The notes under the pieces: generated by a model
Seen by the model: only the letters and a program-made list of their open reading frames with translations
Database searches by the model: none
Told to the model about the DNA's origin: nothing
Translations under genes and position numbers: made by a program
In this document: piece by piece, positions 12-11,811 of the stretch
How positions within the stretch are numbered: the stretch's first letter is position 1
How the letters are laid out: each line of letters starts with the position of its first letter
NCBI RefSeq assembly: GCF_000255295.1
Contig: NC_017030.1
Coordinates: 4,402,001 to 4,466,000, forward strand
Origin: Corallococcus coralloides DSM 2259
GTDB lineage: Bacteria; Myxococcota; Myxococcia; Myxococcales; Myxococcaceae
DNA length: 64,000 bases
Direction of reading: 5' to 3'

Positions 12-2030
<2,019 letters not shown>

Positions 2031-2063
2031 GCTCACGCCTGCCTGCCCTCCGGGCAGCCCTTC

Positions 2064-2103
2064 GCCCACCGGATCCACCGCCAGCCTGCGGTGACCGGTG
2101 GGC
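2064..2103 (+). terminator. Long GC-rich hairpin between ftsH and the next gene
   Basis: GCCCACCGG (2064-2072) pairs perfectly with CCGGTGGGC (2095-2103). Inside it CACCGC (2076-2081) pairs with GCGGTG (2088-2093) around a 6-nt loop, giving a 15-bp composite stem with one small internal loop. No T tract follows, so this could be a terminator without a U run, an attenuator or an mRNA processing/stability element. It ends 20 nt before the AAGGAGG ribosome binding site of the next gene. Confidence 0.5.
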
Positions 2104-2136
2104 GAAATTACTTTCCAACGACAAGGAGGCGTCGCC

Positions 2137-2385
2137 GTGGAGAACCGGATCGGAAAGAGCTACGTCGCGCGGAAAGCGTTGTTCGCCAAGGGCCTGAAGG
2201 ACGGCCGGCTCACGGTGCAGGAAATCGAGGAGGCGCTCCCCGCGGGGACGCTGACGGCCGCCGAGCGGTGGCTCCTCTACTACTCCCTTCGCGCCGCCCA
2301 GGTGGAGATCATCGACGAGGTGACCGGGCAGGTGGATCACGGCTTCATGGCGGAAGCGCCGCCCCAGGCCCCATCCAACCACTAG
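2137..2385 (+). CDS. Small stand-alone protein resembling sigma-70 region 1.1
   Basis: This 82-residue protein starts at GTG 2137, chosen because a full AAGGAGG (2123-2129) lies 7 nt upstream; upstream in-frame starts lack such a site. The segment around residues 11-55 (LFAKGLKDGRLTVQEIEEALP followed by an amphipathic helix ending in VEIIDE) has the pattern of region 1.1 of primary sigma factors: a Lys/Gly-rich start, a 'G-x-L-T-x-x-E-I-x-x-x-L-P' turn and a final 'V-x-I-I-D-E'. No other sigma regions are present. In housekeeping sigma factors this domain blocks premature DNA binding. A free copy could act on a sigma factor or polymerase, but that is inference. It sits between ftsH and the heat-shock gene grpE. 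Confidence 0.75.
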   Translation: MENRIGKSYVARKALFAKGLKDGRLTVQEIEEALPAGTLTAAERWLLYYSLRAAQVEIIDEVTGQVDHGFMAEAPPQAPSNH

Positions 2386-2390
2386 CCGCG

Positions 2391-2418
2391 TTGACAGGAC
2401 CGTCCTCGCGGTTACGTT
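2391..2418 (+). promoter_or_regulatory. Putative sigma-70-type promoter of grpE
   Basis: A perfect TTGACA (2391-2396) is followed after 16 nt by TACGTT (2413-2418). It lies about 50 nt upstream of the grpE start and directly after the stop of the preceding small gene. The -10 box is a weak match, so this is only a candidate. Confidence 0.4.
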
Positions 2419-2469
2419 CGCGCCGCTCATCGAGGTTCGCTTCTTCCAACCCCTGGCGCAGGTTCGACA

Positions 2470-3060
2470 ATGGACGGCAATCCCCGCAGCGACGAGACCC
2501 CGGAGACGCAGGCCCCCTCCGACACCGAGGTGGAGGCGGCTGACTCCGATACGCAGGCCGAGGCCGCCCAGGATGGCGAGGTGGCGCGGCTCCAGGCCGA
2601 GCTGGAGGCGGCGCGCCGCCGGGTGAACGAGCTGGCCCGGGGGCTCCAGGACCTCACCAAGGACCGCGAGGAGTTCAAGCAGCGCATCACCCGCGAGCGC
2701 GAGCGCATGCTCGACGTGGAGCGCGGCAACGTGGCCCGCACGCTGCTGGAGGCCATTGACGAGCTGGACCTGGTGCTGAACGCCAGCCAGCAGGACACGT
2801 CCCCCGTGGTGCAGGGTGTGCGGATGATCCGCGACAGCCTGCTGTCCAAGGCCCAGGCCACCGGCATCGAGCGCCTCCAGGTGGTGGGGCGCCCCTATGA
2901 TCCGAACCTGGCCGAGGCGGCGGACATGGAGGTCACGCCCGTCCCCGCGGACGACCAGAAGGTGGTCGCCGAGTTCCGCGCGGGCTACCGCCTGAAGGAC
3001 CGCATCATCCGCCCCGCCCGGGTGAAGGTGGCCCGGTACGTGGCCCCGGCCGAGGCCTGA
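2470..3060 (+). CDS. grpE: Nucleotide exchange factor GrpE
   Basis: GrpE releases ADP from DnaK in the Hsp70 chaperone cycle in the cytosol. The 196-residue protein has an acidic, disordered N-terminus (about 1-38), a long coiled coil (about 39-90, with EVARLQAELEAARRRVNELARGL and KDREEFKQRITRERERM), a four-helix region, and the C-terminal beta wing with the family pattern GYRLKDRIIRPARVKVA at about 170-186. Length and domain order are normal. dnaK and dnaJ are not in the window, so this copy is separate from them. A sigma-70-like promoter lies just upstream and a hairpin just downstream, suggesting its own transcript. Confidence 0.95.
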   Translation: MDGNPRSDETPETQAPSDTEVEAADSDTQAEAAQDGEVARLQAELEAARRRVNELARGLQDLTKDREEFKQRITRERERMLDVERGNVARTLLEAIDELDLVLNASQQDTSPVVQGVRMIRDSLLSKAQATGIERLQVVGRPYDPNLAEAADMEVTPVPADDQKVVAEFRAGYRLKDRIIRPARVKVARYVAPAEA

Positions 3061-3070
3061 CGTCCCCTCG

Positions 3071-3099
3071 GGCCCGCGACCCCCTGAGCGTCGCGGGCC
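3071..3099 (+). terminator. GC hairpin after grpE
   Basis: GGCCCGCGAC (3071-3080) and GTCGCGGGCC (3090-3099) form a perfect 10-bp stem with a 9-nt loop, starting 10 nt after the grpE stop. A purine-rich run follows rather than a T tract. A terminator role is likely but not certain. Confidence 0.5.
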
Positions 3100-3166
3100 G
3101 GGAAGGGGGGCGGCCACCGGTCTGTTGGGCCCTGACGCCATGGCCCGCCGTGTAAGCTGCCACCCC

Positions 3167-4675
3167 GTGTCCGTCCGACTGTTCAGCGTCCTTTGCGCGG
3201 TGGCGCTCGCCCCGGTGGCGGGAGCCGCCGAGGATCCGCTCAAGCCCTGGCTCCAGGCCCGGGTGCGCGAGCACCTGGCCTGGTTCGCTTCCCCGGCGCC
3301 CTCGGCGGTGGATGCCCCGGTCACCGCGGGCGTGTCCTCACTGTGGCGCGAGCGCCCCGCGGGCTACTCGGGCCTGCCCCACTTCACGCCCCCCACGTCG
3401 CTGGCGCCGCTGATCCGCGCGGTGGAGGCGGGCGTGGTGAACATCACCACGGTGGGGCCCGGCGCGGTGGCGGGCGCGGTGAAGCGCTCCACCGGCTCCG
3501 GCTTCGTGCTGACGCCCGACGGGCTCGTCGTCACCAACAACCACGTGGTGGCCAACGCGCAGGGCCCGGCGGTGAACCCCACGGGCTCCGGCGTCAGGCC
3601 GGGCAAGGACGGCCCCCGCGAGGTGCCCGTGCAGCAGGTGTCCGTGCGGCTGGCGGACGGCCGCGAGTTCCCCGCGGAGGTGGTGGGCCGCGACGCGTCC
3701 ACGGACGTGGCGCTCCTCAAGCTGAATGGTGCCGGGCTGGGGACGCTGCCCGCGGTGTTCCTGGGCGACTCGGACGCGCTGGAGGTGGGGGACTGGGTGG
3801 TGGCCATCGGCAACCCGTTCGGCCTGGACCACTCGGTGGCGCACGGCATGATTTCCGCGAAGGAGCGCGTGCTGGGCGTGGGCCAGTTCGACGACTTCAT
3901 CCAGACGGACGCGCTGATCAACCCCGGCAACTCCGGCGGCCCGCTCTTCAACATGAAGGGCGAGGTGATTGGCGTGAACACCGCCATCATCAGCGAAGGG
4001 CAGGGCATTGGCTTCGCGGTGCCCATCAACCTGGTGAAGGACCTGCTGCCCAACCTGCGGGAGAACGGGAAGCTGGAGCGCGGCTGGCTGGGCGTCGTCA
4101 TCAACGAGGACGGCGCGGACGCCACTGCCACGGCCCCGGTGGTGAAGGACGTCTACCGCGGCAGCCCCGCCGCCCAGGCGCACATCCGCCCCGGGGACCG
4201 GCTGGTGGCGGTGAACGGCCGGCCCATTGGCAGCTACCTGCAGCTCTTGCGCAAGGTGGCGCTGCTGGCCCCGGGCACGGAGGCGAAGCTGACGCTGCTG
4301 CGCGACGGCGGCACCCAGGAGGTGGCGGTGCGGCTCGTCGCCCGGCCCGCCCAGGAGGCCACCGAAGGGCTCTCCAACCGGGGCGGCAGCAGCGCCAACG
4401 ACCTGGGGCTGGTGCTGCGGGATTTGACGCCGGAGGTGGCCGCGCCCCTGGGCTACGAGGCCTTCCTGGGCGCGCTCGTGTCCGGTGTGGTGCCGCGCAG
4501 CCCGGCGGAGCAGTCCGGCCTGCGCGCGGGCGACGTCGTCATGGAGGTGAACCGCCGCCGCGTGAAGGATGCCGCCGCGGTGAAGGCCGCCCTGGAGCGG
4601 GGCAGCGCCGGGGCCAGCATCCTCCTGCGCGTCCAGCGGGGCGACGCGCTCCAGTACATCGCCATCGCCCGCTGA
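3167..4675 (+). CDS. HtrA/DegP-family periplasmic serine protease
   Basis: This trypsin-like protease would degrade or refold damaged envelope proteins. From the GTG at 3167 it has 502 residues and begins with a signal peptide (VRLFSVLCAVALAPVAGAAE). Upstream TTG (3125) and ATG (3140) starts would add charged residues before the signal and lack a clear ribosome site, so GTG 3167 is preferred but unproven. The catalytic triad is visible: His126 in TNNHVV, Asp180 in STDVALLKL, Ser256 in NPGNSGGPLF. Two PDZ domains follow (about 300-385 and 405-495), the DegP/DegQ layout. It closes the ftsH-grpE proteostasis run. Some annotators would choose the earlier ATG. Confidence 0.92.
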   Translation: MSVRLFSVLCAVALAPVAGAAEDPLKPWLQARVREHLAWFASPAPSAVDAPVTAGVSSLWRERPAGYSGLPHFTPPTSLAPLIRAVEAGVVNITTVGPGAVAGAVKRSTGSGFVLTPDGLVVTNNHVVANAQGPAVNPTGSGVRPGKDGPREVPVQQVSVRLADGREFPAEVVGRDASTDVALLKLNGAGLGTLPAVFLGDSDALEVGDWVVAIGNPFGLDHSVAHGMISAKERVLGVGQFDDFIQTDALINPGNSGGPLFNMKGEVIGVNTAIISEGQGIGFAVPINLVKDLLPNLRENGKLERGWLGVVINEDGADATATAPVVKDVYRGSPAAQAHIRPGDRLVAVNGRPIGSYLQLLRKVALLAPGTEAKLTLLRDGGTQEVAVRLVARPAQEATEGLSNRGGSSANDLGLVLRDLTPEVAAPLGYEAFLGALVSGVVPRSPAEQSGLRAGDVVMEVNRRRVKDAAAVKAALERGSAGASILLRVQRGDALQYIAIAR

Positions 4676-4699: not shown

Positions 4700-5335
4700 T
4701 TACTTCGCGCCCGCGTCCTTGCCGTTGAGCCACAGCCCCAGCTGGTTGCCGGTGCGGCCCTCGGTGACGAGGACGGCCTCGATGCGCGCGTTGACGCCGT
4801 AGTTCTTCCCGCCGCCCTTCTTGGGCAGCGACCACACCGACTGTGGGGTGAAGACGACCTGCGCGCGCACGCCCCGCGCCATGAACATGCGGTTGAACGT
4901 GCCGCCGTTCCACATGTCCGGCGCCGTGCCGCTCACCGTGAGGTAGTTCATCACCGGGTTGCCCTGCGCGTCCGTCTTCTTCGGCGCGCCGTGGCAGAGG
5001 CCGTACTTCCCGCCCGAGAAGAAGGGCGTGATGTTGATGGTGTACTCGTTGGTGCCGGGGTTGAAGTCGCCCGGGGACAGCATGCCCGCGTCGTCCTCGG
5101 TGACGATCATGTACAGGCGCTTGCCCGTGTACTTCTTGCGGAAGGCCTCCGCCTGCTGCTTGCACTGCGGATCCACGAGCGCCCCGTCACACTCGCCCAC
5201 GTACTTCTCCAGGAAGGCCCCCAGCCCGCCCAGGGGCTCGGACTCGTCACGCAGCTTCGCGAAGCGTGAGTCGACGTCGGCCAGGGCGAGCGTGGGCACA
5301 AGGAGGGCGAAGGCGGCGGCCAGGATGCGATTCAC
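4700..5335 (-). CDS. Secreted protein of unknown function
   Basis: I do not recognise the family. The 211-residue protein starts at GTG 5335, where a signal peptide (NRILAAAFALLVPTLALADV) begins 8 nt after a CCGGAG ribosome site; the longer open frame adds 32 unlikely residues. The mature part is compact, with at least three Cys (ECDGALVDPQCKQQ and GLCHG), predicted beta strands and no membrane segment, so it should be periplasmic or secreted. It faces the HtrA gene tail-to-tail and diverges from the PilZ gene, sharing a 198-bp upstream region with an 8-bp inverted repeat. No catalytic motif is visible. Confidence 0.85.
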   Translation of the reverse strand: MNRILAAAFALLVPTLALADVDSRFAKLRDESEPLGGLGAFLEKYVGECDGALVDPQCKQQAEAFRKKYTGKRLYMIVTEDDAGMLSPGDFNPGTNEYTINITPFFSGGKYGLCHGAPKKTDAQGNPVMNYLTVSGTAPDMWNGGTFNRMFMARGVRAQVVFTPQSVWSLPKKGGGKNYGVNARIEAVLVTEGRTGNQLGLWLNGKDAGAK

Positions 5336-5455
5336 GGCGGGAAACTCCGGAAAAAGAGGGGGGAAGGACAGCCCGGGGATGGTGCCACTCCCGCCGCGCC
5401 GGGGGCAGCGCTTTCCCGTGAACCGGAACATGGTGAGTCACAGTGCGTCAGGGTG

Positions 5456-5481
5456 GATGTAGGTGATTATTTGCCTACATC
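5456..5481. promoter_or_regulatory. Inverted repeat in a divergent promoter region
   Basis: GATGTAGG (5456-5463) and CCTACATC (5474-5481) are perfect complements separated by a 10-nt AT-rich spacer, so centres are 18 bp apart. It lies 121 bp upstream of the secreted-protein gene and 53 bp upstream of the PilZ gene. This is a plausible operator for a dimeric regulator of one or both genes. Confidence 0.45.
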
Positions 5482-5533
5482 TGGCTACCGTGTAGTTTGC
5501 CCCTGTCCCCACCTGTTTCGGAGCCCTCCCCGC

Positions 5534-5893
5534 ATGAACACGCAGCCCCAGGAACGCCGCTCCCACCTGCGCTTCGACAAGATCTTCACCGTGTACCTGT
5601 CCACCCAGGACGGGATGATGCGGGGCATCGGCCGCAACATCAGCGCGCGGGGCATGTTCATCGAGGTGCGCGACTCGCTGGGGCTGGGCGAGAAGCTGAA
5701 GGTGACGTTCGCGGGCGAGGACGGCACGGAGATGACGTGCCTGTGCGAGGTCCGCTACCAGGTGGCGCTGGCCTTCGGCCGCAAGGACGGGCGTCCCGGC
5801 AACAGCCGCGGCGTGGGCCTGCGCATCGTGGCCTACGAGACCATGGACGACGCGCCGCTGCTCCTGGTGGACCGCGAGCGGGTGATGCACTGA
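5534..5893 (+). CDS. PilZ-domain protein (probable c-di-GMP receptor)
   Basis: This single-domain PilZ protein of 119 residues should bind cyclic di-GMP in the cytosol. Both binding motifs are present: RxxxR as RSHLR near residue 10, and (D/N)xSxxG as NISARG near residue 37. The ATG at 5534 starts immediately before the conserved QERRSHLRFD segment; upstream in-frame codons belong to the promoter region. Small PilZ proteins are numerous in myxobacteria and are linked to motility and polysaccharide control, but the partner here is not known. A hairpin terminator follows. Confidence 0.9.
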   Translation: MNTQPQERRSHLRFDKIFTVYLSTQDGMMRGIGRNISARGMFIEVRDSLGLGEKLKVTFAGEDGTEMTCLCEVRYQVALAFGRKDGRPGNSRGVGLRIVAYETMDDAPLLLVDRERVMH

Positions 5894-5900
5894 AACACCA

Positions 5901-5946
5901 CGGGGCACGGCCCTTCCCCCATTGAGCGGGAAGACACCGTGCCCCG
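5901..5946. terminator. Bidirectional hairpin between PilZ and dehydrogenase genes
   Basis: CGGGGCACGG (5901-5910) pairs perfectly with CCGTGCCCCG (5937-5946), and CTTCCC/GGGAAG pair inside the loop. It sits between two convergent genes and could end both transcripts. It lacks a clear T tract. Confidence 0.55.
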
Positions 5947-5975
5947 GGGGGCGACGCAGGAATCGGTGAGGCCGG

Positions 5976-7526
5976 TTACTGCGAGAAGCCTTCCAGCAGG
6001 TAGTGGGCTTCGATGCGCTTGAGCGCGAGGATCATCGCGGCGCAGCGGCTGTCCACCGGCTTCCCGATGCAGTACGGGCGGCTGTCGTGCATCTCCGTCT
6101 TGCGCGGCTGGTTGCGCGAGATGTCCCGGATGATGCGGTAGTTGCGCTTCATGGCGCGCTCGAGGCGCTGATCGACTTCCGCCTCGCTCCAGCGCTCCAT
6201 GCGCTTGTTCTGGATCCACTCGTAGTAGGACACCGTCACGCCGCCGGCGTTGGCGATGATGTCCGGGATGAGCTCGATGCCGCGCTTCTGCAGGACGCGG
6301 TCGGCCTCCGGAGTGGTGGGGCCGTTGGCGCCTTCGGCGATGAGCTTGACCTTGAGGCGCTCCGCGACGTCCGCGGTGATCTCACCCCCCAGGGCCGCGG
6401 GGACGAGGATGTCCGCCTGCACGTCCCAGAGGTCCTTCTTCTCGATGCGCTGGGCGCCGGGGAAGCCCACGACAGAGCGCTTGAGGTTCTTGGGGTCCGC
6501 CACGTACGCGGACAGCGCGTTCACGTCGATGCCGTCGCCGTTGAAGATGGAGCCGTCGGCGTCGTTCACCGCGAGCAGGCGCGCGCCCATGTTCGCCAGG
6601 ATGTTGGCGGCGTGGCTGCCCACGTTGCCGAAGCCCTGGAGGACGAAGGTCTTGCCCTTCACGCTCTCGCCGCGGTCGGCGTAGTAGTCCTCGATGCAGA
6701 ACGCGACGCCCTGGCCGGTGGCCTTGCCGCGGCCTTCCGAACCACCGATGCGCACGTCCTTGCCAGTGACGATGCCGCGCAGGTTGTGGCGCTCGCGCTC
6801 ACCGTCGGAGAACTGGCGGTACAGGAGCGCCATGATCTCCGGGTTGGTGCCCACGTCCGGCGCCGGGATGTCGATGTTCGGCCCGATGAGGCTCTTGAGC
6901 CGGTACATGAAGCGCAGGGTGATGGCCTCCAGCTCCTCGCGGCCGTACTCGCGCGGATCCAACTGGATGCCGCCCTTGCCGCCGCCGAACGGGACCTCCG
7001 CGATGGCCGTCTTCCAGGTCATCTCCGCGGCGAGCGCCTTGAAGAGATCCAGGGACACCTCGCGGTGGTAGCGCAGACCGCCCTTGTAGGGGCCACGGGC
7101 CTGGTTGTGCTGGACGCGGTAGGCCTTGAAGCGCTGCGACTCACCGGGGACCAGCTGGTACACCAGACCGTCCGGCAGCCGCAGGTGGCCGTGGCGGATG
7201 GCGACGTCCGAGCCCAGCAGGGCGCGGCCGTTCAGGATGAGGTTGCCGTTGGCCAGGCGCTCCAGGCCTTCGGGGTTGCGCACCTGGGTGACGGAGAGGT
7301 CGGCGAAGGACTTCGCCGCCTCCGCGGACAGCGGCACGAGCCGGTCCTTGAGCTTCGCGGTGACGTAGAAGATGTGCTCGTAGTCGGGCTCTTCGAGCTC
7401 CAGACGCACCCGCTTGTCCAGGCCGATGAGATCCGCCGCGTAATTAAAGATCTCCATCGCCTCGGTGTAGATGGTGCGCTTGGGCGTAGGGGCCGGGGCG
7501 CGCATGAAAGTCTCTTCGCTGGCCAT
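5976..7526 (-). CDS. Glu/Leu/Phe/Val family NAD(P)-dependent dehydrogenase (glutamate-dehydrogenase-like)
   Basis: This enzyme would catalyse reversible oxidative deamination of an amino acid, most likely glutamate, to the 2-oxo acid and ammonia. The 516-residue protein starts at ATG 7526, with AAGGAG 11 nt upstream; a longer frame to 7604 reads through the leader. Landmarks include YKGGLRYH and the substrate-site segment VPFGGGKGGI at about 200-220, PAPDVGTN, and the nucleotide-binding GFGNVGSHAA at about 340. It is somewhat longer than the common 420-residue form, with an extended N-terminus. Substrate choice within the family cannot be settled from sequence by eye. A palindrome and a weak promoter lie upstream. 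Confidence 0.93.
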   Translation of the reverse strand: MASEETFMRAPAPTPKRTIYTEAMEIFNYAADLIGLDKRVRLELEEPDYEHIFYVTAKLKDRLVPLSAEAAKSFADLSVTQVRNPEGLERLANGNLILNGRALLGSDVAIRHGHLRLPDGLVYQLVPGESQRFKAYRVQHNQARGPYKGGLRYHREVSLDLFKALAAEMTWKTAIAEVPFGGGKGGIQLDPREYGREELEAITLRFMYRLKSLIGPNIDIPAPDVGTNPEIMALLYRQFSDGERERHNLRGIVTGKDVRIGGSEGRGKATGQGVAFCIEDYYADRGESVKGKTFVLQGFGNVGSHAANILANMGARLLAVNDADGSIFNGDGIDVNALSAYVADPKNLKRSVVGFPGAQRIEKKDLWDVQADILVPAALGGEITADVAERLKVKLIAEGANGPTTPEADRVLQKRGIELIPDIIANAGGVTVSYYEWIQNKRMERWSEAEVDQRLERAMKRNYRIIRDISRNQPRKTEMHDSRPYCIGKPVDSRCAAMILALKRIEAHYLLEGFSQ

Positions 7527-7585
7527 GATGGAACGTGCTCCTTGAGGGCCCACCCGGATGGGGGCCACTGGGGAAAGCGGCGCCC

Positions 7586-7614
7586 TTATGAGCACAGCCG
7601 CCACGGGGATTCAA
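7586..7614 (-). promoter_or_regulatory. Candidate promoter of the dehydrogenase gene
   Basis: On the minus strand TTGAAT (7614-7609) is followed after 17 nt by TCATAA (7591-7586). It lies 60 nt upstream of the start codon and just downstream of the 21-bp palindrome. The -10 match is poor. Confidence 0.3.
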
Positions 7615-7633
7615 CCAGTCTGGCGGCAGGCCA

Positions 7634-7654
7634 TTTCTCCAAATTATGGAGAAA
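7634..7654. promoter_or_regulatory. 21-bp palindrome upstream of the dehydrogenase gene
   Basis: TTTCTCCA (7634-7641) and TGGAGAAA (7647-7654) form a perfect 8-bp inverted repeat around AATTA. It is AT-rich in a GC-rich genome and lies 108 bp before the dehydrogenase start, upstream of the candidate -35 box. This position suits an activator, or a repressor acting with other sites. Confidence 0.55.
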
Positions 7655-7777
7655 AGTCGCGGGCTTAGCCGACGCGGTGTGTCACCCCAACGAATGCGCC
7701 GTGTCATGAATGTCAGGGCTTCTGGGCCTTAGAAGCGGGCGTGGGGGAGGGCGCTTGAAAAGTCGCGGAGAAACTCC

Positions 7778-7806
7778 TTGCCGGGTCCGGATACGGATGG
7801 TACTTA
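7778..7806 (+). promoter_or_regulatory. Putative tRNA-Thr promoter
   Basis: TTGCCG (7778-7783), a 17-nt spacer and TACTTA (7801-7806) end 16 nt before the mature tRNA 5' end, a normal distance for a tRNA promoter. The -10 box matches only partly. Confidence 0.4.
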
Positions 7807-7822
7807 CGCGCCGCCTCGGTGC

Positions 7823-7898
<76 letters not shown>

Positions 7899-7908
7899 AG
7901 AAGAAGAA

Positions 7909-7940
7909 GGCCGGTTGCCCCTGTGGCAGCCGGCCTTTTT
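7909..7940 (+). terminator. Rho-independent terminator of tRNA-Thr
   Basis: GGCCGGTTGCC (7909-7919) pairs with GGCAGCCGGCC (7925-7935), with one G-T wobble and a 5-nt loop, followed by TTTTT (7936-7940). It begins 11 nt after the tRNA CCA end. Confidence 0.9.
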
Positions 7941-7964
7941 CATTTTCGCGCTCCGGAGATTCGC

Positions 7965-8993
7965 ATGCGGCTGCCATGGCTGGTGCTGGCCCTGTTCTGG
8001 GTGCTGGCCGGGTGTGGCGGTGGGGCGAAGGTCGTCCGGCTCGACACGGGGCGCGGTGCGCCGGTCGTCCAGGTGCCTCGTGCGGATGGATCCACCCCTC
8101 GGGTCGCGCTCGGTGGGGCTGCTCTGAAGGAGGCGGTGGCCCGGCTGGCCCCGGGGCTTCGGCTGTCGCCGCGAGCCCAGGAGGCGGCACGGCGCCTCTT
8201 TGAAGTGGAGCCTCGGAGCGGTTCGTATCTGGTGGATCTGGAGCGCCGCCGCATCACGCCGGTCGGGGCTGGGGATCAACGTGCGGCTGAGTTTTCGCCG
8301 CCCGATGTGGAGCTGACTCGCGCGTATCTGCGTTGGTGTGGCCGGACCGGACGGACGGGTGACTGTCTGGGGCTCCTGAAGGAGAGCCCGGTCGTCGCGG
8401 GGGATGCGCGCTTCGCCCTGGCGCTCGCGCTGGCGAAGGGGGCGGTGCTGGATGAGCTGTGGGACGCCGTGAAGGACATGGCGAATCCCGAGGCGCTGAT
8501 GCAGGCCGCACTCTGGACTGCGGCCACATATGCGTTGCTCTGGACCGTGCCAGAGCCCGCGACGAAGGGCGTGGCGGCGGTGCTCACGGCGGCGCTCATT
8601 GGCTACGTGGGCATCGATACGTTCTGGGCGCTCATCCAGGGCTTCCGGCACCTGATGGCCGAGTCGGATGCGGCGCTGACATTCGACGCGCTGCGCGGGG
8701 CGGGGGAGCGGTTCGGCAAGGTGATGGGCCGGCAGGCGGCGCGCGCGTTCGTGATGCTGGCGACGGCTGCGATTGGGAGTACAGGCGCGACCCTGGGCGC
8801 GAAGCTCCCGGGCTTGCCAGGGGCGGCTGGGGCCGCTGTCCGGGTCGAAGCGGAAGCCGGCGTTGTCTATTCAGCGGTGGGGCAGGTTGAAACCGTGGCC
8901 GTGGCGGCGGACGGATTCACGTTCGGCCTCGCGCCTGGCGCCGTGGCCATGTCCACGCGCGGCACGGGATCCAGCACTGGCCGTCTGGTCTGA
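7965..8993 (+). CDS. SitA-like polymorphic toxin lipoprotein, N-terminal part (frame-disrupted)
   Basis: SitA proteins of myxobacteria are lipoprotein toxins passed to kin cells by outer-membrane exchange; each has a shared N-terminal region and a swapped C-terminal toxin. The 342-residue frame starts at ATG 7965 with GGAG 6 nt upstream (a longer frame would begin inside the tRNA). It has a lipoprotein signal ending in LAGC (Cys17), a conserved-looking body, and hydrophobic stretches at about 185-225 and 260-280. The Gly/Ala-rich tail (GAVAMSTRG) is where the toxin domain would begin, but the frame stops 12 residues later. Out of frame by -1, a nuclease-like domain follows directly, then an immunity gene. 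Assignment to SitA is by recalled similarity and locus layout, not a search. Confidence 0.75.
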   Translation: MRLPWLVLALFWVLAGCGGGAKVVRLDTGRGAPVVQVPRADGSTPRVALGGAALKEAVARLAPGLRLSPRAQEAARRLFEVEPRSGSYLVDLERRRITPVGAGDQRAAEFSPPDVELTRAYLRWCGRTGRTGDCLGLLKESPVVAGDARFALALALAKGAVLDELWDAVKDMANPEALMQAALWTAATYALLWTVPEPATKGVAAVLTAALIGYVGIDTFWALIQGFRHLMAESDAALTFDALRGAGERFGKVMGRQAARAFVMLATAAIGSTGATLGAKLPGLPGAAGAAVRVEAEAGVVYSAVGQVETVAVAADGFTFGLAPGAVAMSTRGTGSSTGRLV

Positions 8994-9028
8994 AGGCGTG
9001 GAAGTCCTTCAGTGGATTCAAGAAAGCA

Positions 9029-9298
9029 ATGGGCCCGGCGGGCAGCGGCAAGCAGTGGCACCACATCGTCGAGCAGACGCCCGGGAACGTGCAGCGTTTT
9101 GGGGCCGAGTCCATACACAACACGGAGAATGTCATTGCCGTTGATGCGAGAATCCATGAGCGGCTCAGTGCGTATTACTCCTCCAAGCAGCCCTTTGCTG
9201 GAACAGGGACCGTTCGTGAATGGCTTCGTGGGCAGTCTTACGCGCAACAGAGGGAGTTTGGCATCCGGCAGCTCAAGAGATTTGGAGCGATTCCATGA
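9029..9298 (+). CDS. Detached toxin domain of the SitA-like gene (His-rich nuclease-like)
   Basis: The 89 residues from ATG 9029 begin inside what should be the C-terminal toxin: the same frame is open upstream and reads SGLKAWKSFSGFKKAMG before QWHHIVEQ. The WHHIVEQ motif, a conserved Asn-rich HNTENVI segment and a later His (RIHERLS) suggest a His-metal nuclease fold of the HNH type; this is inference. No good ribosome site precedes ATG 9029, so independent translation is doubtful. A single-base deletion near 8981-8992 (or a sequencing error) would explain the split. The stop overlaps the immunity start as ATGA. Confidence 0.55.
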   Translation: MGPAGSGKQWHHIVEQTPGNVQRFGAESIHNTENVIAVDARIHERLSAYYSSKQPFAGTGTVREWLRGQSYAQQREFGIRQLKRFGAIP

Positions 9299-9705
9299 AG
9301 GCAGATGCTTGGAAGAAGCTCTCCATTGAGGAGTTGATGGAGAAGTTTCAAGAGGCCTCCGCGAAACACGGACGCCTTCTGGATGCGCTGAAGACGCGGG
9401 CCGCGAACAAGGAGTATGACCGAGTCATTGCCATAGAAGCGGAGCTGAGGGGGCGCGGTGAGAAAGCGCAGGGCGGAATCCTGTCGCTGCTGGGCGACCC
9501 AGAGCCGGGGACCCGGTTCTGGGCGGCGACGTCCGCTCTGGGGTTCTCCTCCGCGGAGGCGGAGCGAGTCCTTGCCGAACTCGCGAAGCCACCCCTGAGC
9601 CAGGTTGGCCTCAGTGCCGCGGTGCTACTGGATGCGTGGAGAGACGGGAGCTATACGCCCAAGTGGGGACAGCCGGTGTCACCTGGAAACCTGGACCCGG
9701 GGTAA
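9295..9705 (+). CDS. DUF2019-type immunity protein for the SitA-like toxin
   Basis: This 136-residue cytosolic protein starts at ATG 9295, overlapping the toxin stop by four bases (ATGA), the usual coupling of toxin and immunity genes. The pattern (LDALKTRAANKEYDRVIAI, then ELRGRGEKAQ, LLGDPEPGTRFWAATSAL, and LSQVGLSAAVLLDAWRDGSY) matches the DUF2019 family as I remember it, an all-helical repeat-like fold found next to toxins. It would bind and neutralise the cognate toxin domain. The gene is intact even though the toxin frame is broken. Confidence 0.8.
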   Translation: MKADAWKKLSIEELMEKFQEASAKHGRLLDALKTRAANKEYDRVIAIEAELRGRGEKAQGGILSLLGDPEPGTRFWAATSALGFSSAEAERVLAELAKPPLSQVGLSAAVLLDAWRDGSYTPKWGQPVSPGNLDPG

Positions 9706-9925
9706 CGAGCTCGCGCCCCCCTCGAAGGACGGCTCCAGGGCTCCCGGGGGAGGGTGGCCCTGGCCGGCGCACCCCCTGGAGACCTGAACCCGCCGATAAG
9801 CGCAAGGCTGCCCGCCGGGCTTCTTCCTCTGGTACGGAGGGGGGAATCTGTCGCACAACGTCGCCCGTTAACTGGCGCGTTCGGGTGGTCTAGAACACCG
9901 CCGGCCCTCTTCTGGAGCAACAACC

Positions 9926-10699
9926 GTGAGCAGTCTCATGAAGGAGTCCGTGCTGCGCGTGCACCACTGGACTGACACCCTCTTCAGCTTCGTCACCACG
10001 CGGGACCCGGGTTTCCGCTTCGCCAGCGGCCAGTTCACGATGATCGGCCTGGAGGTCGAGGCCCGCCCGCTGCTGCGCGCCTACAGCATGGTGAGCGCGC
10101 ACTATGACGACCACCTCGAGTTCCTGAGCATCAAGGTGCCCGGCGGGCCCCTGACCTCCCGGCTGCAGCACCTGAAGGAGGGCGACAACATCCTGGTCAG
10201 CAAGAAGGCGACCGGCACGCTCGTCCTCAAGCACCTGCTCCCCGGCAAGAACCTCTACATGCTGAGCACCGGCACGGGCCTGGCTCCCTTCCTCAGCCTG
10301 GTGAAGGACCCGGAGATGTACGAGCAGTTCGACCGCGTCATCCTCACGCACACCTGCCGCCGGGCCGAGGAGCTGGCCTACCACGACCTCTTCCTCCACG
10401 AGCTGCCCCACAACGAGTTCTTTGGGGAGCTGGTGAAGCAGAAGCTCACGTACTACCCGAGCGTCACGCGCGAGGACTTCCGCAACACGGGCCGCATCAC
10501 CGACCTCATCCGCAGCGAGAAGCTGTTCAACGACGTGGGCCTGCCGCCGCTGAACCCGGAGACCGACCGGGTGATGCTCTGTGGCAGCCCCGGCATGCTC
10601 TCGGACCTCACGACCATGCTGGAGGAGCGCGGCTTCCGGGAAGGCACCCCCGGAGAGGCCGGCCACTACGTCACGGAGAAGGCCTTCGCGGAGCGCTGA
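9926..10699 (+). CDS. fpr: Ferredoxin/flavodoxin-NADP+ reductase
   Basis: This FAD enzyme of 257 residues transfers electrons between NADPH and ferredoxin or flavodoxin in the cytosol. The start is GTG 9926 with GGAG about 9 nt upstream. The FAD-binding RAYSM motif is near residue 52 and the NADP-site GTGLAPFLS near residue 114. The C-terminal YVTEKAFAER matches the bacterial Fpr class, which ends soon after a conserved EKAF. No operon partner is evident: it lies 220 bp after the immunity gene and faces the tautomerase gene tail-to-tail. Confidence 0.93.
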   Translation: MSSLMKESVLRVHHWTDTLFSFVTTRDPGFRFASGQFTMIGLEVEARPLLRAYSMVSAHYDDHLEFLSIKVPGGPLTSRLQHLKEGDNILVSKKATGTLVLKHLLPGKNLYMLSTGTGLAPFLSLVKDPEMYEQFDRVILTHTCRRAEELAYHDLFLHELPHNEFFGELVKQKLTYYPSVTREDFRNTGRITDLIRSEKLFNDVGLPPLNPETDRVMLCGSPGMLSDLTTMLEERGFREGTPGEAGHYVTEKAFAER

Positions 10700-10717
10700 G
10701 CGGCCACGACCCGCGGA

Positions 10718-10951
10718 CTACTTGAGCGGGTTGTAGCCGGGCTTCTTGTAGAGGCGGTCCCACTGGCCGGCGATCTCCGGCCGGTAGACCGTCTCCGCCC
10801 AGTCCGTCGGGGAGACCTCCTCGATGGCGACCGAGATGGAGCCCTCCGCGCTGCCGAGGGCCTCCATCACGTCCTTCACGATCCGCTCGGCGAGCTGGGC
10901 CTTCTGCTGCTCGGACTTGCCAGGGTAGAGCTTCACGGTGACGTGGGGCAT
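10718..10951 (-). CDS. 4-oxalocrotonate tautomerase family protein
   Basis: The 77-residue protein begins MPHVTVKLYPGKS, so after Met removal Pro1 is the N-terminal general base of this superfamily. The pattern AERIVKDVMEALG followed by VSVAIEEV-like strands (here SISVAIEEVSPTDWAE) is typical; these enzymes interconvert enol and keto forms of small oxo acids. It is slightly longer than the 62-residue archetype, with a C-terminal tail resembling the E. coli PptA group. It follows the cupin/decarboxylase gene by 11 bp on the same strand, so the two are probably one operon acting on related oxidised small molecules. Confidence 0.92.
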   Translation of the reverse strand: MPHVTVKLYPGKSEQQKAQLAERIVKDVMEALGSAEGSISVAIEEVSPTDWAETVYRPEIAGQWDRLYKKPGYNPLK

Positions 10952-10962
10952 GCGCCGATCCT

Positions 10963-11811
10963 CTACTTCTGGGACGGGTCCTTCGCGGGGGCTGGTGTCT
11001 TGAACGTCTCCTTCGCGACGTTCATCGCGGACAGGGCCTTGGGCCAGCCGCAGTAGAAGGCCAGGTGCGTGAGCGCCTCGACGAGCTCCGGCTCCGAGAC
11101 GCCGTTCTCCCGGGCCTTCTTCAGGTGGAAGGGCAGCTGTTCCGTGTTGCCGCCCATGGTGAGCGCGGCGACGGTGACGAGGCTGCGGTCGCGGGGCGCG
11201 AGCTCCGTGCGCTCCCAGACGTCGCCAAACAGCACGTCATCCGTGAGCTGCACCATCTTGGGCGCGAAGTCGCCCATCTGCTGCTTCAACGCGGAAGGTT
11301 CCTTCTTCATGGTCATGGCTCCCTGTGGCGCGGATGCGCCCTTGGCGTATTGCGTGTCGCTGACCTTCTCCAGCCAGGTGACGGCCTTGCCGTCGCTCTC
11401 CTCCTGGACGGCGATGTGGGTCATCCGGGTGGTCGCCGTGGCGCCGTGCCAGTGCTTGACGCCCGCGGGGATGCGCACGACGTCGCCCTCCCGGAACTCT
11501 TGAACGGGGCCGTCCCAGCGCTGGATCCACCCGGTGCCACCCGTGACGATGAGGGTCTGTCCCAGAGGATGGACATGCCACGCGGTGCGGGCGCCGGGCT
11601 CGAAGGTGACGGAGCCACCGGTCGCCCGCCCGGGCGGCATCGCTCCGAAGAGGGCCTGCCGGTGCACGGTGCCGGTGAAGTGCTCGGCCTCCGCCAACTC
11701 CACGGGCCGTGAGCCTCCGCGCGAGATGGCGATCTCCTGGGGCGGTGTCGCCGCCACTGGGGCCCCCAAGGGAAGGGCCAGGGCGAAGAGGAAGCATGAC
11801 AGAGGTCTCAT
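10963..11811 (-). CDS. Secreted cupin-carboxymuconolactone decarboxylase fusion
   Basis: The 282-residue protein has a signal peptide (about 1-21), a cupin domain (about 60-150; metal-type residues in [28 protein letters not shown] and [11 protein letters not shown]), and a C-terminal carboxymuconolactone decarboxylase/AhpD-like domain (about 185-270; [22 protein letters not shown] and [13 protein letters not shown]). The second domain retains the helix with Cys but lacks a CxxC pair, so peroxidase activity is unlikely. Such fusions occur widely beside tautomerases and are often annotated as dehydrating or decarboxylating enzymes of unknown substrate. Periplasmic location follows from the signal peptide. 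It is the upstream gene of a probable two-gene operon. Confidence 0.9.

Follow-up and report, generated by a model that had tools for sequence, protein, structure and literature searches.

Region 1.1 is normally understood as a gate which a primary sigma factor inserts into the channel of the polymerase. An 82-aa protein encoded in the 64-kb stretch of DNA analysed here (the window) raises the question of what such a domain does as a separate protein. The preliminary description had claimed a stand-alone protein like sigma-70 region 1.1 between ftsH and grpE. This protein, hereafter R1.1, was confirmed by a PF03979 score of 24.8 bits, above the family cut-off of 22.5 bits, and by FtsH and GrpE as its neighbours.

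Gene and sequence context

The R1.1 reading frame was located at 2137-2385 on the + strand and encodes 82 aa followed by a stop codon. It uses a start codon of GTG and is preceded by a Shine-Dalgarno sequence AAGGAGG (2123-2129, + strand) 7 nt ahead of the GTG, with similar sequences in the alignment rows of relatives. A longer reading frame was possible from a GTG at 2098; in loci L003 and L010, the sole start codon listed was the equivalent of 2137. The dN/dS ratio over the first 70 codons was 0.02-0.11 among the 8 homologues compared. The start codon, the Shine-Dalgarno sequence and the dN/dS values together showed that R1.1 is a real gene under strong purifying selection. The genome that holds the window consists of one contig of 10.08 Mb, and its closest relatives in the public set are Corallococcus.

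Upstream of R1.1 is an ftsH paralogue (12-2030, + strand) with FtsH_ext, AAA and M41 domains, referred to here as FtsH-B and putatively the FtsH-D (MXAN_4333) of M. xanthus. The downstream neighbour is grpE (2470-3060, + strand), assigned with Pfam and the probable orthologue of the heat-induced MXAN_4331. The next conserved neighbour after grpE encodes an HtrA/DegP-type serine protease with PDZ domains (3140-4675, + strand). Further downstream (4700-11811), Pfam matches were found for DUF6066, PilZ, Glu/Leu/Phe/Val dehydrogenase, FAD/NAD-binding oxidoreductase, tautomerase and cupin with carboxymuconolactone decarboxylase, while 2 of the 8 proteins scanned there had no Pfam match. The sole tRNA gene found in the window was a tRNA-Thr (anticodon CGT) at 7823-7898 on the + strand.

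The leader between ftsH and R1.1 had a minimum free energy of -55.9 kcal/mol (z -5.56) and contains a stem-loop (2061-2106, + strand) with a 12-bp outer stem and a 6-bp inner stem. Among 19 relatives, changes on both sides of the stem were seen in 7 of 18 pairs (18 cells), with 74.8% of the cells paired. The covariation score was equalled by none of 500 shuffles and the pair count by 23 of 500. By eye, the stem-loop is gone from L012, L025 and L026. It may be a terminator or an attenuator; a search of Rfam gave no match within 1900-2700. Two candidate promoters were recognised by eye on the + strand: CTGCGG - 17 nt - TACTTT for R1.1 (2086-2114), which is conserved (TAtCTT in relatives), and the sigma-70-type TTGACA - 16 nt - TACGTT for grpE (2391-2418), just past the R1.1 stop. 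Sequences like the latter were seen by eye at the same place in most of 31 loci compared, L034 and L036 being exceptions. A consensus scan of 1900-3200 found no promoter and no terminator.

Domain identity and relation to SigA

The profile search proposed in the preliminary description matched PF03979 (Sigma70_r1_1) to residues 13-66 of R1.1 (E 2.1e-5), and this was the only Pfam family above its own cut-off. PF03979 also matched all 31 members of the R1.1 alignment (the window protein plus 30 sequences drawn from the 41 loci of a peptide-pattern scan) at E up to 1, with a best value of 1.4e-6. Alignment of the R1.1 family with SigA region 1.1 by hhalign gave a probability of 96.2, for which 57 of the 60 SigA rows were used, as in the column comparison below. 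Identity between R1.1 and the SigA of its own genome was 15 of 51 aligned residues.

The structure prediction that had likewise been proposed gave two AlphaFold models, both of which matched sigma-1.1 chains best. For the model of the window protein (pLDDT 83), the fold search placed four sigma-1.1 chains first, with Z of 7.9, 7.6, 6.5 and 5.7, followed by an unrelated row at 3.5; the best row had 61 aligned residues at 3.4 A. For a distant member, modelled from 14 distant sequences only (pLDDT 79), the top eight rows were sigma-1.1 chains with Z from 8.4 to 4.8, the next row (4.4) was unrelated, and the best row had 61 aligned residues at 3.3 A. The case for the fold rests on profile and fold together, because the Foldseek E-values for the window model were weak (best 0.1), the fold-comparison tool warns that Z under 8 can reflect a common arrangement, and the best fold row, 9a58, is an integrative model. 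Overall, R1.1 is identified by profile, profile-profile and fold comparison as a stand-alone sigma-70 region 1.1 fold. The protein may already carry a region 1.1 label in automatic annotation. Its tail was of low confidence in the window model (pLDDT 44-55), is probably flexible and is otherwise poorly conserved. Histidine was the last residue in 30 of 47 distinct R1.1 C-terminal tails, even in unalignable ones (residue 82 in the window protein).

The SigA of the window genome carries its own region 1.1 (C1:2774320-2774559, 84.6 bits with PF03979). On sequence grounds, R1.1 is thus an extra, stand-alone paralogue of SigA region 1.1, and a split sigma factor, with region 1.1 moved out of SigA, was ruled out. 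Regions 1.2-4 of a primary sigma factor are absent from R1.1, of which the 82-aa ORF ends at 2385, and SigA is a separate gene. Within the window genome, the R1.1 protein was the only strong match to itself. A third and weak PF03979 match was observed in a 320-aa frame of that genome (G000:C1:7160150-7160242, 12.2 bits, below the cut-off).

R1.1 and SigA have the scaffold positions L15, G19, G23, E29, L34 and P35 in common and share the motif L..G...G.LT..E....LP. Helix 3, at codons 43-51 (2263-2289, + strand), reads ERWLLYYSL and was invariant in all 31 R1.1 sequences. At the same site, the 57 SigA rows compared carry QIDDVMSMF with hardly any variation; all nine R1.1 residues differ from it, the DD of SigA being replaced by WL. 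The net charge of the R1.1 core averaged +0.2 (range -5 to +4, 31 of 31 sequences), against -9.0 (range -10 to -8) in the SigA core for the 38 of 60 rows counted, the other 22 being outside the pattern used. In the polymerase channel, region 1.1 is described as mimicking DNA by its negative charge (PMC4598750). The core of R1.1 has a charge of about 0, and an acidic DNA mimic was rejected on this difference from SigA. Since the scaffold is the same and each family is strictly conserved yet different in the same helix, the sequences point to a change of the partner of the region 1.1 scaffold in R1.1. The protein would originate from a sigma factor, and its spread on the SigA tree suggests that it has been present since early in its order of Myxococcota.

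Distribution and linkage with FtsH-B

In a search with the family profile, strong R1.1 matches came from 103 of the 145 genomes that belong to the order of the window genome and from none of 50 genomes of other Myxococcota, some of the Myxococcota genomes searched being incomplete. The search listed 106 genomes, of which G013, G184 and G194 were dropped (E 4e-4 to 8e-4, in frames of 655-978 aa); the matches in G013 and G194 sit at the place of SigA. With SigA and stand-alone proteins counted together, PF03979 scored above the cut-off in 178 of 195 genomes of the phylum. A scan of genome contigs with short peptide patterns of the window protein yielded 41 R1.1 loci. Their records are labelled Myxococcota or 'Deltaproteobacteria', except for L015 (Comamonas, probably a label error) and L039 (Proteobacteria); outside Myxococcota these short patterns were the only search, by which distant relatives could be missed. 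A phage or plasmid origin of R1.1 was rejected: tblastn for such relatives gave only two plasmid records (E 4 and 5) and one unannotated phage record (E 0.05), a scan of viral contigs showed no R1.1 relative, no PHROGs family was found for R1.1 and BFVD had no match to it at E up to 0.001.

A different region 1.1-like domain was observed in locus L236 (G156:C1215:16884-17060, minus strand), with 35.9 bits and over the cut-off. It lies at the very end of a 288-aa frame, with a stop 6 residues later and no sigma regions behind, and is possibly another stand-alone region 1.1 judging by this arrangement. Second genes for region 1.1-bearing sigma factors were observed at G003:C27:4328-4495, G005:C356:15069-15221 and G187:C308:29165-29338; the additional PF03979 matches in G003, G005 and one in G187 were ruled out as stand-alone proteins since their frames continue into sigma factor sequence. 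The preliminary premise that region 1.1 normally occurs only as part of a primary sigma factor was slightly too strong, given the non-sigma frame in G156 and the N-terminal domain of delta, which is described as resembling region 1.1 (PMC7749165).

FtsH was found directly upstream of R1.1 in all 41 scanned loci. In the same loci, GrpE was detected downstream in 34 and HtrA in 40, the single HtrA miss being a contig end, and FtsH was kept in all seven loci where no GrpE was detected. The gap between FtsH and R1.1 was 15-31 bp in L036-L038, and the two genes overlap by one base in L041 if the first ATG is the start. For the twelve most distant loci (L030-L041), conservation over the aligned part was 59-71% for R1.1 and 56-69% for FtsH, with GrpE (39-46%, 5 loci) and HtrA (39-47%) both below R1.1.

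The window genome has two FtsH genes, which are 53% identical. In a quick tree of 51 chosen FtsH rows with SH-aLRT support only, those beside R1.1 (FtsH-B) formed a single clade of 26 rows (SH-aLRT 100), apart from the other FtsH. Within the order, 102 of 145 genomes had FtsH-B in a search of the 195 genomes (E up to 1e-190); outside the order, it was found in G164 and doubtfully in G018, which was not counted (55% identity). The G164 contig ends just after FtsH and is uninformative on R1.1. Across the 145 genomes, 101 had both R1.1 and FtsH-B, two had R1.1 only, one had FtsH-B only and 41 had neither. The two with R1.1 only were G020, which is 61% complete, and G026, where R1.1 lies on a 3.9-kb contig with no FtsH within 1.2 kb upstream. 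The genome with FtsH-B only, G140 (L139, G140:C42:1-8000), is a natural loss of the R1.1 gene: ftsH-B is followed directly by grpE and htrA and R1.1 is missing, which indicates that FtsH-B can do without R1.1. In three later genomes (G155, G056 and G026), R1.1 was not adjacent to FtsH. G155 and G056 have both R1.1 and FtsH-B, and in G155 R1.1 sits with grpE and htrA, away from FtsH. Two further apparently unlinked cases, G028 and G030, are best read as contig breaks.

On the SigA tree, a quick tree of 60 of the 195 genomes with SH-aLRT support only, R1.1 and FtsH-B each change at least 10 times. Among five independent pairs on supported branches, FtsH-B followed R1.1 in 4.4 on average and never showed the opposite; a sign test with these five pairs was not significant (median p 0.0625). 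Joint loss of R1.1 and FtsH-B through one deletion of neighbours is an alternative account of this pattern. Overall, the genetic linkage and co-inheritance with the protease by which an FtsH adaptor or regulator may be recognised were found for R1.1, and the gene that accompanies it most steadily is a single FtsH paralogue, not the heat-shock genes in general.

Possible functions of R1.1

In M. xanthus, FtsH-D (MXAN_4333) is described as a protease important for the ppGpp-regulated degradation of PopD (PMC4320627, citing Konovalova et al. 2012). Strain DK1622 is described as having only two GrpE-type exchange factors, the heat-induced MXAN_4331 and MXAN_6672, which lies upstream of dnaK2 (PMC11019930). 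The window genome also has two GrpE genes. The one outside the window locus lies just upstream of a frame with the DnaK start motif IDLGTT. It thus adjoins a DnaK-like frame as MXAN_6672 adjoins dnaK2, so that the grpE of the window would correspond to MXAN_4331, and its FtsH and R1.1 to MXAN_4333 (FtsH-D) and MXAN_4332. Tag order, together with the locus of M. xanthus AM003 (L016), leads us to infer that FtsH-B is FtsH-D and R1.1 is MXAN_4332. A literature search of main texts found no report of MXAN_4332, of a stand-alone region 1.1 protein or of a protein adaptor of FtsH-D.

The reading that we tentatively favour is re-use of the sigma-1.1 scaffold as a small partner, either adaptor or regulator, of FtsH-B/FtsH-D. 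R1.1 has kept the first helices and the shared motif, lacks the acidic DNA-mimic charge and carries a helix 3 that is aromatic, hydrophobic and invariant. It would work in the cytoplasm as a small partner of the protease next to it, with the exposed face of helix 3 binding the protease or a client. In this way it may serve FtsH-D as substrate adaptor or as regulator, perhaps in M. xanthus when PopD is destroyed in a ppGpp-dependent manner. The PopD cascade may be narrower than the R1.1 family, in which case the general client would be another one. Counted against an FtsH-D partner were the exceptions in G140, G026, G020 and G155 and the non-significant sign test, as well as the fact that, to our knowledge, the well-studied sigma-1.1-like domains all belong to RNA polymerase. 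In a fuller scenario, a sigma region 1.1 was freed in the myxobacteria, acquired a new binding face and became dedicated to FtsH-D as its adaptor or regulator; it might then supply the missing connection from ppGpp and starvation through FtsH-D proteolysis to C-signalling. This scenario is unlikely to hold in its entirety.

Nearly as likely as the partnership with FtsH-D, though doubtful in itself, is an RNA polymerase-binding regulator of the delta type. Helix 3 would then dock on the polymerase surface or on SigA and alter sigma use or promoter opening under stress, at a level maybe set by FtsH-D. The two well-studied holders of such a domain, primary sigma factors and delta, are polymerase subunits, and the N-terminal domain of delta, which resembles sigma-1.1, is described as binding outside the main channel, in the space between the beta' shelf and the jaw (PMC7749165). 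In addition, three of the 31 members (L030, L032 and L034) have longer acidic tails of 35-65 aa with a charge of -9 to -11, which are faintly delta-like. However, the tail of the window protein has only 20 residues after position 62 and a charge of -2, compared with -47 given for delta (PMC7749165). The steady association with one FtsH also argues against this role, as does the distribution of R1.1, which was not seen in 42 of the 145 genomes of the order or in any of the 50 other Myxococcota, some of these genomes being incomplete. The two readings could also combine, with R1.1 regulating polymerase and FtsH-D controlling the amount of R1.1.

R1.1 could also be a client of FtsH-D, a short-lived stress regulator with the flexible tail as degron, whose destruction would be the point of the pairing. 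Adjacent genes and the probably flexible tail, so often ending in histidine, would agree with this; the tail is otherwise poorly conserved, and the role is improbable. A role as heat-shock co-factor of GrpE/DnaK and not of FtsH is more improbable still. In its favour, grpE comes directly after R1.1 in 34 of 41 loci, MXAN_4331 is described as heat-induced (PMC11019930), and G155 has the arrangement given above; against it, grpE appears to have its own promoter-like sequence past the R1.1 stop, seen by eye and absent from the consensus scan, and the seven loci with no GrpE detected near R1.1 all have FtsH. Finally, R1.1 might work in trans as an ordinary region 1.1 does, mimicking DNA by acidic charge or inhibiting the DNA binding of sigma. 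The fold is the same, but a charge of about 0 instead of -9 and WL in place of the DD of helix 3 are very hard to reconcile with this role, which would be the least expected of all.

For function, the preliminary description had left a choice between modulation of sigma factor or polymerase and a domain reused for something else. The latter fits better than modulation of polymerase in the way of region 1.1, because the charge is absent, helix 3 is rewritten and the companion is one FtsH. The domain itself and, in delta, a precedent for a stand-alone sigma-1.1-like protein were already known. What appears new is the R1.1 family itself, together with the altered helix 3 and the association with FtsH-D, none of which was found in the literature searched. 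As a neutral paralogue under strong constraint and tied to one membrane protease, R1.1 would be a case of this fold re-used outside the holoenzyme. R1.1, putatively MXAN_4332, would also be a concrete candidate for the control of M. xanthus FtsH-D, which makes a question in starvation-induced proteolysis and development testable.

Compared with known systems, R1.1 is closest to sigma-70 region 1.1 (PF03979; B. subtilis 5mww and integrative model 9a58, E. coli 4llg and 6psr) in profile, helix order, motif and best fold matches. It differs in being an 82-aa stand-alone protein without regions 1.2-4, neutral and not acidic, with ERWLLYYSL in place of QIDDVMSMF in helix 3 and FtsH as usual neighbour. 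The delta subunit (RpoE) of Firmicutes RNA polymerase is also a small protein in its own right, and its globular domain is described as resembling sigma-1.1 (PMC7749165). Delta chains did not appear among the fold-search rows listed for the two models, which does not speak against a likeness to delta. Unlike delta, the window protein lacks a long, strongly acidic C-terminal region, and its Pfam assignment is to Sigma70_r1_1 only. The third related system is the PopD/PopC cascade of M. xanthus with FtsH-D, which would be the same FtsH as the neighbour of R1.1; FtsH-D has no protein adaptor in the literature searched, while the R1.1 family spans the order.
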